Origin: Flavobacteriales bacterium
GTDB lineage: Bacteria; Bacteroidota; Bacteroidia; Flavobacteriales; BACL11
Assembly: GCA_002696275.1 (NCBI GenBank)
Contig: NZRO01000027.1
Span: 1 to 39,352 of the forward strand
Length of the DNA: 39,352 bases
Direction of reading: 5' to 3'
Notes under the pieces: generated by a model
Told to the model about the DNA's origin: nothing
Databases searched by the model: none
The model's input: the letters and a program-made list of their open reading frames with translations, nothing else
Part shown: positions 3,686 through 16,295 of the stretch, one piece after another
Layout of the letters: every line of letters begins with the position of its first letter
How positions within the stretch are numbered: the stretch's first letter is position 1
Program-made: the position numbers and the translations under genes

Positions 3686-3712
3686 AAATTATTTTTAAAA
3701 GTTTTTTCTAAT

Positions 3713-3850
3713 CAGAAAATCCAATTAATTTTTTAGGTTTGTTTTAGTAGATTGATTAGCGGTGTAAAAAGCGGAGCAATTTTTAGTTTGAAAGCTTGCT
3801 GTAATCATGTAAATAGGGTGTAGGTTGTAATCCTGCTACCCCGACTTTTT
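3713..3850 (+). repeat. Interspersed repeat, copy B (full, best tRNA-3'-like end)
   Basis: This is the clearest copy. It has TAGGTTTG at 3734-3741, then GATTGATTAGCGGTG in the middle. A T-arm-like hairpin at 3820-3836 has stem GTAGG/CCTGC (one G-T pair) and loop TTGTAAT. TACCCCG (3837-3843), A and TTTTT (3846-3850) follow. An additional inverted pairing links TAGTAGATT with AATCCTGCTA with one bulged C. The copy separates the T9SS repeat gene from the 3' end of the truncated AAA+ gene. Confidence 0.75.
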
Positions 3851-3874
3851 CATTTAACAATCAATTATTTATGA

Positions 3875-5311: not shown

Positions 5312-5350
5312 CAAGTTTGTTTTATTAGATTGATTAGTGGTGCAAAAAGA
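5312..5350 (+). repeat. Interspersed repeat, copy C (5' part only)
   Basis: The stretch AAGTTTGTTTTATTAGATTG followed by ATTAGTGGTGCAAAAAG matches the 5' half of copies A and B. The tRNA-like 3' half is missing or degraded; only a weak trace (GTGTAATCA) remains before the next gene. It lies between the 5' end of the DUF2007 gene and the start of the LRR gene. Confidence 0.6.
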
Positions 5351-6412: not shown

Positions 6413-6979
6413 CTATTTTAGATTTAAAGCTCTGTGTAATGATGTATAGTGACCTCTTTCATTAGATCTTGAATTAAATATAATTTCCTCTAAAGTGTTA
6501 CTAGCTTTAACTTCTGATTGAATAATTTTAATAAGAGAATCCCATTCATTTTTTTCTGCTGAGAATGTCTTAAATGATATCATGAAATCAAAATTTCCCC
6601 CATGCCTAAATAACCTCCCTGGTAAAGGATAGTGTTTTCTATTACCAATTAAAATACCATATCGAAGATATGGATGTACATTTTTATGAGTTTGAGATTT
6701 TTTACTATAAGTAATTGCATCATGAGTAGTTATAGAATTAATCTTTGCCTCAATTATAACCCTAGGATTCCATTCATTATTTCCCAACTCTTCTGAAATT
6801 AAAATATCAGTTTCATACTTCATAAACTTTGGTTTAATTGGATCATTACCATTATATTTTAGAATTTCACTAGAATAAGGTAATTTATATCCATCTCTAA
6901 CTCTCAATTTATCATTAACTTTTCGAAGATCATTTTCCATCTTACTTATAATTGTCTTAACCCATTCTTTTTCGTTCAT
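6413..6979 (-). CDS. PD-(D/E)XK nuclease-like protein
   Basis: This is a 188-residue protein. Residues 55-80 read YETDILISEE...PRVIIEAKI, which fits a PD-(D/E)XK nuclease core with Asp58 and the Glu77-x-Lys79 pair. A helix (HDAITYSKKSQTHKN) and a strand (LRYGILIG) follow, as expected in restriction-endonuclease folds. No methyltransferase is adjacent. It could be an orphan restriction-type enzyme, a phage-defence nuclease or a DNA-repair enzyme. It lies alone between repeat copies D and E, read opposite to the repeats. The fold call rests on motif spacing; the target is unknown. Confidence 0.6.
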   Translation of the reverse strand: MNEKEWVKTIISKMENDLRKVNDKLRVRDGYKLPYSSEILKYNGNDPIKPKFMKYETDILISEELGNNEWNPRVIIEAKINSITTHDAITYSKKSQTHKNVHPYLRYGILIGNRKHYPLPGRLFRHGGNFDFMISFKTFSAEKNEWDSLIKIIQSEVKASNTLEEIIFNSRSNERGHYTSLHRALNLK

Positions 6980-7040
6980 CGTATTATTTCAATTTTATTA
7001 AGGTAAAATTAGTTAATTATTTTAGAAAATATTTTTTCAC

Positions 7041-7173
7041 CAAGAAATCTAATTTATTTTTAAGTTTGTATTAGTAGATTGATTAGCCCTGAAGAATAGG
7101 AACGATTTTTAGTTGAAATATTCCAATCATGTAAAAAGGTGTTAGGTTATAATCCTACTACCTCGAATTTTTT
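7041..7173 (+). repeat. Interspersed repeat, copy E (full)
   Basis: This copy has TAAGTTTG at 7061-7068, then TTAGTAGATTGATTAGC as in copy B. The middle is diverged, followed by AATCATGTAAAAAGG and a T-arm-like end (GTTAGG, loop TTATAAT, CCTAC), CTACCTCGA and a T-run to 7173. The leading segment ATCTAATTTATTTT (7047-7060) matches the same position in copy B. It fills the gap between the nuclease-like gene and the 3' end of the acidic protein gene. Confidence 0.7.
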
Positions 7174-7552: not shown

Positions 7553-7712
7553 TTTTTATAATTTTTACAAAATTAAAAAATACTTAATAGGTGACTATAA
7601 TTATTACTTCTTAATTTAAAAAATTATAATTTAGCAACATATTATTTGATATCATTTTTAGTAGTAAGCAGAAAAGTATTAAAATCACTTAGAAAAAACA
7701 TATTAATTGATA

Positions 7713-8498
7713 ATGATTACAAAAGAAGATTTTAAAAATTATAGACAGCAACTAGGATTCACAAATCAACAAACAGCTAAAAAATTTTTTGCAGGAAAGG
7801 ATATTCTCCCTACAGTTGATTTTAACTACATTAATTTATTTAATACAAGGCTTTCAGAGATTATAGAAAAAATTAACACAATCTCTCATCATTCTATAGA
7901 ACATGAATCTATTAACTTATTTAATAGAGAAAATATTTATAATGTATTTGAAAAATTAAAAAAAAACCAAATAATTCCTAAACTAAACAATCAAGGAAGA
8001 AGGCCTGAACAAGTTTATTTTTCTTGGATGAGAGGATATGTTATTTCAAATTATTTTTTAAGAGCATTATCAATTATATTTGAAGTTAATATTACAGATA
8101 TTGATTTAATTGGGGATGACGATCTGATTAATATTGACACATTTAAAAGAACACCCAAGGCAGATTTAGAAGTGAATCTGAAAAATAACAGTAAAATTAG
8201 ATTAGAGATTCAATCTGGTTTTCAAGGAGTAAACGACATAAAACAACATAAAGTTTTAGAAGCTAAAAGAATATTTGAATCAGAATCTATTTCTTCATTA
8301 GCCATTCATTTTGATCTTTTTAACGGACAAGTAGCTTTTGTGAAACTTGATGAAATTGAAGAAGATAGTGTTAATTGGATTACAAGGCAGCAGATGGAAG
8401 GGCAAACCGTTTTTAATATAGACCAGAATTATTTTGTTTGGAAATTAATAGATAAGCCTCCTAAATTTAGAGATTTATTTTTTGGGAATCATGAGTAG
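7713..8498 (+). CDS. Restriction endonuclease-like subunit 1 (PD-ExQ type)
   Basis: This is a 261-residue protein, first gene of a three-gene operon that ends with a C5-cytosine methyltransferase. Residues 148-168 (PKADLEV...KIRLEIQSG) give a nuclease-like active site with Asp151 and Glu165-x-Gln167. Glutamine in place of lysine is known in BglII-type enzymes. A helix with DIKQHKVLEAKR follows, then a strand. The N-terminal 100 residues probably bind DNA. The start is set at ATG 7713; a TTG two codons upstream is also in frame. The next gene overlaps it by 8 nt and encodes a protein with the same domain order, so the two look like paralogous subunits. The recognition site is unknown. Confidence 0.65.
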   Translation: MITKEDFKNYRQQLGFTNQQTAKKFFAGKDILPTVDFNYINLFNTRLSEIIEKINTISHHSIEHESINLFNRENIYNVFEKLKKNQIIPKLNNQGRRPEQVYFSWMRGYVISNYFLRALSIIFEVNITDIDLIGDDDLINIDTFKRTPKADLEVNLKNNSKIRLEIQSGFQGVNDIKQHKVLEAKRIFESESISSLAIHFDLFNGQVAFVKLDEIEEDSVNWITRQQMEGQTVFNIDQNYFVWKLIDKPPKFRDLFFGNHE

Positions 8499-9150
8499 AA
8501 TTTATACTGAATTAAGTAACCTGTTTAAGTATAACTTAACTAATGTTGCTAAATCATTAGGGTATAGTAAATATAATCTTTTAATTCTTGCAAAAGATTT
8601 TAAAACCCTACAGCTTGAATTTCCGGAAGTTTGGAATTCTCTTATGAGCTGTAGACATCAAAAAGATAAAAGAACAATAACAGAATATGCTTTAGATTTA
8701 GTTGCATCTTGGGTCTATGAAGATGTTATTTTGAGTGAATTGTCAAAATTCTTTGATATTGAATTAAATGGTACAGATAAAAAAAGAGAAATCCTTTCTT
8801 CAAGTAAGGTAAAAACAGACGCTGATTATTTAATTACAAGTAATGGTAACTCAACAACATTAGAACTTGTTAATTCATATACGAATTATTGGAAATCAAG
8901 TGGCAAAATTGATTTAAGAGATAATAAATTCAAAAAATTAGAAAGAAATAACTCATTACTTGTCTGTATTGATATTTTTAATAAAGATTTTTTTATACTT
9001 GATGTGAAAAAGAATAAAACACTATTTAAATATATACCATATCACGAACTATGGGGAAAACCTGCTTATCAGCTAGATATTAATAATATGGAGACAACTC
9101 GCTTAAGTTTAAAAAATTTAACTTCTGAATTAAATAAAAAAATATTTTAA
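8491..9150 (+). CDS. Restriction endonuclease-like subunit 2 (degenerate active site)
   Basis: This is a 219-residue protein. Residues 68-127 align by eye with the core of the preceding gene product: a helix (LVASWVYEDVILSELSKFF), then DADYLI (Asp112), STTLELVNSY (Glu125-x-Val127) and LLVCIDIFNKDFFILDV. The third active-site residue is Val rather than Lys or Gln, so this subunit may be weak or inactive and serve specificity or dimerisation. The N-terminus (NLTNVAKSLGYSKYNLLIL) looks like a helix-turn-helix. ATG 8491 overlaps the upstream stop by 8 nt, and the stop overlaps the methyltransferase start as TAATG. It is probably the partner of subunit 1; this is inference from context and similarity. 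Confidence 0.6.
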   Translation: MSRIYTELSNLFKYNLTNVAKSLGYSKYNLLILAKDFKTLQLEFPEVWNSLMSCRHQKDKRTITEYALDLVASWVYEDVILSELSKFFDIELNGTDKKREILSSSKVKTDADYLITSNGNSTTLELVNSYTNYWKSSGKIDLRDNKFKKLERNNSLLVCIDIFNKDFFILDVKKNKTLFKYIPYHELWGKPAYQLDINNMETTRLSLKNLTSELNKKIF

Positions 9151-10295
9151 TGCAGAGTATTTCAGTAATAGATTTGTTTTCAGGTGTAGGTGGACTTAGT
9201 TATGGTTTTTATAATGACAAAGATTTTAGAGTGATTGCTGCGAATGAAATACTTCCAGATATGGCAAAAGCATATTCTCTCAATCACCCGGATGTTAAAA
9301 TGTATAATAGTGATATTAAAAATTTTGGGATTGATATATTGAAAGCTGATCTAAATATTGAAAGTGAAGATATTGATTTGATTATTGGGGGTCCTCCGTG
9401 TCAAGCTTATTCTACAGTTGGGAAAAGAATAATTGACGATCCTAGAGGAAAGTTGTTTCAAGAATATTTTAGAGTTTTAAAAGAGTTAAAACCAAAAGCA
9501 TTTTTGTATGAAAATGTTAAAGGATTACTTTCAATGCAAAAAGGCTGTTTACTTCCAGAAATCTTAACCTTATTCAGATCATTAGGATATAAAGTTGAAT
9601 TTAAAGTGTTAAATTCCGCGGATTTTGGAGTGCCTCAGATTCGTGAAAGAGTGATTATTTTTGGAACAAAGTTAAATCACTCATTTTCTTACCCAGAGCC
9701 CACACATTTTAATAAAAACAAAACACTTGATTTATTAAACACAAATCAACAGCCTCATTTAACACTTTCAGACGCTATTAGTGATTTACCATTCATTAAA
9801 ACTAATGACCAGTCATTTAATTATTCTTCAAAGCCAAAAAATAATTTTCAAAAACTTATGAGAAAAAATGCACCTGAAAAACTAATGGATCATAATTCTC
9901 CAAAAAATAACAAGAATCTTATTAAACTAATGAAGTTATTACCTGATGGTGGAAGCCCAAAAGATATACCGGAAGAATTAAGACCTAAAAGTGGATTTGG
10001 AAACACTTACTCTAAGCTTTGGTGGAATAGGCCTAGTACTACTATTACAAGAAATCTAAGCACCCCTTCTTCTTCAAGATGTATACATCCAAAAGCACAT
10101 AGACCTCTAACTACAAGAGAAGGAGCTAGAATTCAGTGTTTTCCTGATAATTATATTTTCTATGGATCAAGATCTTCCAAAAATCTTCAGATTGGCAATG
10201 CTGTACCTACATTTTTATCAATAGTTTTGAAGGATTCGATTAAAGAACATTTCTCTATAGATTTAGTTAAGAATAAGCTTAAAAGATTTAATTAA
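9150..10295 (+). CDS. DNA (cytosine-5-)-methyltransferase, type II R-M
   Basis: This enzyme transfers a methyl group from S-adenosylmethionine to C5 of cytosine in a specific site and protects host DNA from the two upstream endonuclease-like subunits. It is a full-length 381-residue protein with the standard motifs: I (VIDLFSGVGGLSYGF, 6-20), IV with catalytic Cys84 (GGPPCQAYSTVGKR), VI (YENVKG, 120-125), VIII (PQIRERVIIFG, 162-172), a target-recognition region at about 185-300, IX (RNLSTPSSSR) and X (QIGNAVPTF). Its start codon overlaps the upstream stop by one base (TAATG), so the three genes are translationally coupled. Only one methyltransferase is present. Confidence 0.92.
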   Translation: MQSISVIDLFSGVGGLSYGFYNDKDFRVIAANEILPDMAKAYSLNHPDVKMYNSDIKNFGIDILKADLNIESEDIDLIIGGPPCQAYSTVGKRIIDDPRGKLFQEYFRVLKELKPKAFLYENVKGLLSMQKGCLLPEILTLFRSLGYKVEFKVLNSADFGVPQIRERVIIFGTKLNHSFSYPEPTHFNKNKTLDLLNTNQQPHLTLSDAISDLPFIKTNDQSFNYSSKPKNNFQKLMRKNAPEKLMDHNSPKNNKNLIKLMKLLPDGGSPKDIPEELRPKSGFGNTYSKLWWNRPSTTITRNLSTPSSSRCIHPKAHRPLTTREGARIQCFPDNYIFYGSRSSKNLQIGNAVPTFLSIVLKDSIKEHFSIDLVKNKLKRFN

Positions 10296-10403
10296 ATTAT
10301 AAAATGTAGTGTAATGACTCTTTCTTAAATAACAAATTACAAAATGAAATGACTTTAGTTGCATTTAGAATATTAGAAATTCATTTTTTTGTATTATTGT
10401 AGT

Positions 10404-10910
10404 ATGAAAAATGAATTTATAAAAGATCAGTTATGGAATGCTGCTTGGAGAGCTTCTACACAAAGAGCAAATATTTATTTACAGAATAATAATCAAGAAA
10501 CCTTAAAAAAATTTAGAAAAGATATTAAAAAAAATGTTTTAGAATTTATTGATGATAATATAGATGTATTATCAGAAGAAAAGTTGATGCATAAGATTGA
10601 ATCTTTATCAAAGAAATATTCTGTAGATGGGATTAGTTTTAAAATAGGCCATAGTCAGAAATTATTAAATTTAATGTTAAAGTATTATTGGTGTTTAGGG
10701 TGGTTAAATTATACTCCACCTCATTGCCCTATTGATAGAATGATACTTGTAGCTGCGAAAGTTAAAATTAATGGAAGAACACCTTCCTGGACAAAATTAA
10801 GATCAATAGTTGAATACAAAGAAATGATTGAACAAATTAAATTCAATGAAGGGGTCCAGTGTTTGTCTGAATGGGAGTTAAATAAATATCAAAAATTAAT
10901 TAAAAAATAA
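10404..10910 (+). CDS. Hypothetical protein next to the R-M operon
   Basis: This is a 168-residue, mostly helical, basic protein with no signal peptide or membrane segment. The most striking part is KLLNLMLKYYWCLGWLNYTPPHCPIDRMIL (residues about 84-113), with a PPHCPID motif that I recall from small proteins of unknown function near defence genes; that recollection is weak evidence. The start is the ATG at 10404, not an in-frame TTG upstream, because ATG follows an 18-nt leader shared exactly with another gene (see 15795). It lies 108 nt downstream of the methyltransferase and could be an accessory gene of that system. Confidence 0.55.
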   Translation: MKNEFIKDQLWNAAWRASTQRANIYLQNNNQETLKKFRKDIKKNVLEFIDDNIDVLSEEKLMHKIESLSKKYSVDGISFKIGHSQKLLNLMLKYYWCLGWLNYTPPHCPIDRMILVAAKVKINGRTPSWTKLRSIVEYKEMIEQIKFNEGVQCLSEWELNKYQKLIKK

Positions 10911-15755: not shown

Positions 15756-15794
15756 GAATTATTTCATTCGTCATAATTTTTGTATTATTGTAGT

Positions 15795-16295
15795 ATGAAA
15801 AAATTATTTTTTATTCCCATAATTATTTCTTTTGTTTCTTGTTCATCAATACAAACGATGCAAATAGGACAGTTAAACATGATATCTACAAGAAATATTG
15901 ATAGCAATTTTGACTATTCTCAGATCTCAACATATTCAGGAAGTAGTCAAAAAGAACTAAGAACAACCAAAGCTATTTCGGTGGAAGATGCTGTTAATTC
16001 CGTAGTTAAGAGTGTTCCGGGAGGAGAATTTTTAATGAATGTTAAACTCTATCGTGTTAAGCGAGGTGATAATTATTTTTATTCGGTTGAGGGTGATGTA
16101 TGGGGAAAAAAGGAGTCTGTAAGTTATAGAGGTTTTAAAGAAGGTGATAATGTTGTATGGTCTACAATTAAAGGGGTAAAAACAGGTGTCATAAAATCTC
16201 TAAGAAATGATAACATCTGTTTAATTTTAATAGATGGTACTGACAAAATTATAGAAATTTCTTATGATAAGATTTCAAAATATATTAAAGAATAA
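15795..16295 (+). CDS. Hypothetical lipoprotein
   Basis: This is a 166-residue protein with a lipoprotein signal peptide (residues 1-16, IISFVSC, Cys16 lipidated). The mature part starts SSIQTMQIGQLNMISTRNID, a pattern I associate with small Bacteroidota envelope lipoproteins. The C-terminal half is beta-rich (VVWSTIKGVKTGVIKSLRND). Function is unknown. The start is ATG 15795, preceded by the 18-nt leader TTTTTGTATTATTGTAGT that is identical to that of the gene at 10404. It is convergent with htpG. Confidence 0.55.
   Translation: MKKLFFIPIIISFVSCSSIQTMQIGQLNMISTRNIDSNFDYSQISTYSGSSQKELRTTKAISVEDAVNSVVKSVPGGEFLMNVKLYRVKRGDNYFYSVEGDVWGKKESVSYRGFKEGDNVVWSTIKGVKTGVIKSLRNDNICLILIDGTDKIIEISYDKISKYIKE

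Follow-up and report, generated by a model that had tools for sequence, protein, structure and literature searches.

The window, a stretch of 39,352 nt from a Flavobacteriales bacterium (contig NZRO01000027.1), contains two endonuclease-like genes followed by a single C5 cytosine DNA methyltransferase gene, and raises the question of whether the two nuclease-like products together form one enzyme or whether one of them has been added to a system that is complete without it. The genes, here RE1 (7713–8498), RE2 (8491–9150) and MT (9150–10295), are arranged head to tail on the forward strand. Overlaps of 8 and 1 nt had been proposed in an earlier note and were confirmed, the first at 8491–8498 (ATGAGTAG) and the second at position 9150 (TAATG). 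RE1 is 261 aa long when counted from the ATG at 7713, with an alternative TTG at 7707 adding two codons, while RE2 and MT are 219 and 381 aa, respectively. MT contains the motif GGPPCQ and matched Pfam DNA_methylase (PF00145, 2e-74) and TIGR00675 (dcm, 2.8e-66). The earlier description of the locus as a restriction-modification (R-M) operon with one C5 methyltransferase is supported. RE2 is a real coding gene. Its codon-usage score was above zero in frame 0 alone, as in the neighbouring genes, and the chance of a 219-codon open frame at its composition is about 2e-10.

The fold model of RE1 (pLDDT 88.3, pTM 0.86) had Hjc resolvases (Z 8.1) and DpnI (Z 7.2) as its best structural neighbours, followed by RecU and other nuclease folds. 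As Z values of 7–8 are moderate, the assignment of RE1 as a nuclease draws jointly on the fold, on the motif D151...E165-x-Q167 (8163–8213), which is invariant across the aligned relatives, and on the conserved pairing with MT. RE1 is accordingly best described as a predicted PD-(D/E)XK nuclease with a complete catalytic motif; the D..ExQ form of this motif is known from BglII. The window RE1 deviates from the family invariants at a single position, L43F. Searches of Pfam, NCBIfam, PHROGs and PADLOC returned nothing usable for either RE1 or RE2, and neither protein matched a PDB entry by sequence.

When one genome per species was scanned with an alignment of two RE1 proteins as the query, 20 relatives of RE1 (42–75% identity) were found, and three more came from IMG/VR. 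The 23 relatives span Bacteroidota, Campylobacterota, Pseudomonadota, Planctomycetota, Ignavibacteriota, Fibrobacterota, Chlorobiota, Microgenomatota and others, with organism names as given in the records; some of the carriers are MAGs and two loci (L024 and L025) are truncated. Two further candidates (L003 and L004) were discarded as they were short matches in frames with stops. A C5 methyltransferase gene directly adjoins RE1 in 22 of the 23, and both gene orders occur. In the closest relative, found in a Bacteroidales MAG (L006), RE1 and MT are 75% and 76% identical to the window proteins and the two genes are separated by 12 nt. RE2 was absent beside all 23 RE1 relatives, L006 included, when the loci were searched using tblastn and their ORFs using unfiltered phmmer. 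Because the relatives of RE1 are paired with MT and lack RE2, RE1 and MT are the unit that spreads, to which RE2 has been added in the window's lineage. RE1 and MT would thus make up a complete type II system. The target-recognition region of MT resembles that of relatives without RE2, and is 72% identical to the L006 protein compared with 75% for the N-terminal part. Conservation of this region matches that of the remainder of the protein, and there is accordingly no indication that the arrival of RE2 altered the target.

Some of the RE1-MT pairs were found in distinctive settings. In two Bathymodiolus symbionts, the pair (L020, 5974–7841; L023, 5974–8009) is embedded in the operon for respiratory complex I, flanked by nuoK-like and nuoL-like genes (names assigned by eye) with overlapping ends. 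In L007, by eye, the gene after MT (7915–8310) resembles Vsr, of very short patch repair, and the one after that is recombinase-like.

A candidate target came from two Helicobacter loci (L029 and L030), where an RE1 relative and an adjacent C5 methyltransferase gene are located between typA and a catalase-like/hof cluster. From the gene order on the H. pylori map, we take this to be the position expected for jhp0435. The RE1 proteins at these loci are 46–47% identical to that of the window, the gene order is reversed (MT first) and RE2 is missing. In H. pylori, jhp0435 encodes M.Hpy99XI, which produces m5C at ACGT (PMC3936762), and ACGT (HpyCH4IV) sites occur at 0.05–0.11 of expectation (PMC3849833). 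The family resembles Hpy99XI/HpyCH4IV in the locus of these two members, in its most likely target and in strong avoidance of ACGT, with the Helicobacter genes equated to these enzymes by gene position rather than by sequence. Placing the pair at the M.Hpy99XI locus leads to a testable prediction, namely that ACGT should be purged around the carriers. Around 22 carrier operons (222 kb), ACGT was found 19 times against 341–350 expected under a Markov model (the expectation varies with pooling) and was the most depleted of the 16 palindromic tetramers. In control Bacteroidota genomes and plasmids without RE1, which apart from Chlorobium were not matched phylum by phylum, 737 were observed against 845 expected (Mann–Whitney p 7e-9). 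The target of the RE1-MT family is therefore most likely ACGT, which gives a family without a Pfam or NCBIfam match a strongly supported target. The specificity rests on the relatives, and for the window's own genome we infer it from them.

The matched comparison in Chlorobium involved a MAG (G102) that carries an RE1 relative between transposase genes (L022, contig C23, 4383–5168). In the sampled genome ACGT was found 8 times against 544 expected, while in two congeners (G141 and G197) it was not among the depleted tetramers. The C-to-T product ATGT/ACAT was raised in G102 (0.96 vs 0.76–0.79). No relative of MT was found in the G102 genome, and five positions that are otherwise invariant are changed in its RE1. 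This RE1 is a relic or else a solitary endonuclease that the host tolerates. A precedent for the latter is PacI, a solitary endonuclease in a genome that lacks its sites (PMC3488263). G102 resembles it in having no detected MT and almost no ACGT, and differs in being a MAG, in the five changes and in the few ACGT sites that remain.

In the window's own genome (773 kb), the observed/expected ratio for ACGT was 0.49, and in two congeners it was 0.32 and 0.24. The system was absent from all five congeners examined. As the depletion is equal or stronger in congeners that lack the system, no purge of ACGT can be attributed to the operon, and the depletion in the window genome was dropped as proof of the target. 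When the genome was compared with its congeners for other purged motifs, nothing strong was found. Avoidance of recognition sites increases with the residence time of an R-M system (PMC4687349), and for this reason a recent arrival of the operon is the simplest reading of the missing purge, with a changed or weakened enzyme as the alternative. The hosts thereby form a natural series of ACGT purging, from the window genome (no extra purge) through typical carriers (approximately 5% left) to the Chlorobium without a detected MT (approximately 1.5% left). In the genus of the window as a whole, both ACGT (0.24–0.49 of expectation) and CpG (about half the expected level) are scarce, though the congeners lack this R-M system; this is perhaps the trace of a system that has been lost.

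The relationship of RE2 to RE1 was examined using an HMM of the RE1 family. RE2 scored 11.0 bits and ranked first among 2,206 unrelated ORFs, and this score was reached by 6 of approximately 19,000 scored shuffles in each of two kinds of shuffle. In the reverse search, RE1 relatives ranked second and third, behind RE2 itself. The cores are collinear, with A111-D112 of RE2 aligned on A150-D151 of RE1 and E125 on E165. The RE2 counterpart of the catalytic motif is D112...E125-x-V127 (8824–8871), with Val127 at the third catalytic position, where RE1 has Gln167 and Gln or Lys would be expected, and RE2 retains 12 of the 52 invariant residues of the RE1 family. The earlier note had treated the two products as paralogues, and this stands in part: remote homology is probable, but the resemblance is weak and an HHalign comparison of RE2 with RE1 was non-significant (probability 0.2%). 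On the basis of these alignments, RE2 is probably a remote homologue or paralogue of RE1. It is unlikely that the two are unrelated by descent and resemble each other by chance or through a shared order of helices and strands. The HHalign value would fit this, as would the single-sequence model of RE2, which had no confident fold (pLDDT 38.6), but the first rank against the RE1 profile, the reverse search and the collinearity across the whole core all count against it. Such an alternative concerns ancestry only and is compatible with any of the roles considered below for RE2.

A recent duplication of RE1 as the source of RE2 is very unlikely because the divergence between them is large, yet RE1 is still 75% identical to its relative in L006. 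A distant branch of this nuclease group may instead have been the source of RE2. Searches of overlapping sets of genomes from the phylum (395), family (52) and order (396) yielded no relatives of RE2, and neither did plasmids, phages or IMG/VR viral contigs. One candidate (L027 in G088, 8e-4) was discarded as it is a 462-aa protein without further resemblance.

The earlier note had proposed that RE1 and RE2 are the two halves of a heterodimeric endonuclease of the BbvCI kind, and this was not supported. BbvCI and Bpu10I are type IIT heterodimers that recognize asymmetric sites and have two different catalytic sites (PMC4081073). The window operon shares with them the two endonuclease-like genes side by side, and differs in that the family site inferred here, ACGT, is a palindrome that a homodimer could read, that RE2 is missing in all relatives and that its motif is incomplete. 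Like the window operon, BslI has a single methyltransferase. BslI is an alpha2:beta2 enzyme of the palindromic type IIP in which both subunits constitute the enzyme (PMC4081073). Two different subunit-like genes are again present, whereas 22 relatives of the window operon have one only. In LlaJI, one of the subunits is McrB-like; a family-profile search found no McrB-like domain in RE1 or RE2. The likeness to LlaJI is in the two linked restriction genes of its R-M cassette (PMC1459862, PMC3488263). Two linked restriction genes are thus a known arrangement (PMC4081073, PMC1459862), but in those systems the active enzyme consists of both subunits, and in the relatives of the window operon RE1 alone is retained. 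An obligate heterodimer or heterotetramer of RE1 and RE2, as in BbvCI or BslI, would account for the adjacent and overlapping genes, the probable remote homology and the retention of the motif D and E in RE2. We consider it very unlikely, as all 22 RE1-MT pairs in the relatives are direct neighbours without RE2, the window RE1 keeps the invariants apart from L43F while RE2 has lost most of them along with the third catalytic residue, the recognition region of MT is unchanged relative to relatives without RE2, and the host genome shows no new purged motif when compared with its congeners.

Two other roles for RE2 deserve more weight. It may have been carried along as an additional, independent endonuclease or as what is left of a different R-M system, with a neutral or unrelated function, which we regard as a serious possibility though not quite an expectation. 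The incomplete catalytic motif is consistent with this, as are the non-significant HHalign comparison and the finding of neither a conserved partner nor a relative in any collection searched. However, the frame is intact, codon usage is normal and the overlaps are tight on both sides, and an additional nuclease cutting at a different site would require a methyltransferase of its own. Alternatively, RE2 could be a nuclease homologue with little or no catalytic activity that moderates restriction by binding either RE1 or the RE1 site, for instance through RE1:RE2 pairs. Establishment of the operon in a genome still rich in ACGT sites would then be easier. Val127 in place of Gln or Lys and the position of RE2 within the operon, between RE1 and MT and overlapping both, point in this direction, and ACGT in the host, relative to expectation, is at about 8 times the level around other carrier operons. 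We view this as possible but doubtful, since the ACGT level is explained by recent acquisition alone (the system being absent from the five congeners) and ACGT is similarly rare or rarer in two of them. The more specific proposal that RE2 is a pseudo-nuclease from the same operon that joins RE1 and throttles or alters its cutting, as a built-in brake on a type II enzyme, seems to us rather unlikely.

Overall, we consider it probable that RE1 and MT form a complete and ordinary type II R-M system directed at ACGT, and that RE2 is an inserted extra gene that the system does not require. MT would produce m5C in ACGT and so protect the site, and RE1, which is expected to act as a homodimer, would cut unmethylated ACGT. 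RE2, probably a relative that has diverged far from RE1 and whose catalytic site is incomplete, would have entered the operon of this lineage between RE1 and MT, overlapping both. It would most likely be either an accessory, as a partner tempering RE1, or dispensable, both of which are likelier than an obligate half. The tight overlap of RE2 with both neighbours counts against an inserted, non-obligate gene, as it can hint at a shared function. With RE2 in place, the RE1-MT operon is well suited to testing whether a system of this type is altered by the addition of a nuclease-like gene.

Three further features were noted in the region around the operon. An ORF of 188 aa just upstream, on the reverse strand (6413–6979), includes by eye a D...ExK-like motif (YETDILI...VIIEAKI) and had no family match; it is possibly another nuclease-like gene. 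An intergenic repeat of approximately 150 bp is present in three copies (1517–1660, 3701–3870 and 7034–7172), with fragments at 5315 and 11341. No full-length copy was found elsewhere in approximately 735 kb of the same genome, and the repeat matched neither Rfam nor a tRNA. Its presence may indicate that the operon lies in a region that is cassette-like or prone to recombination. Finally, a 33-nt direct repeat with 91% identity between its copies (10386–10418 and 15777–15809) is located at the starts of two unrelated genes, and is perhaps a shared promoter and start region.
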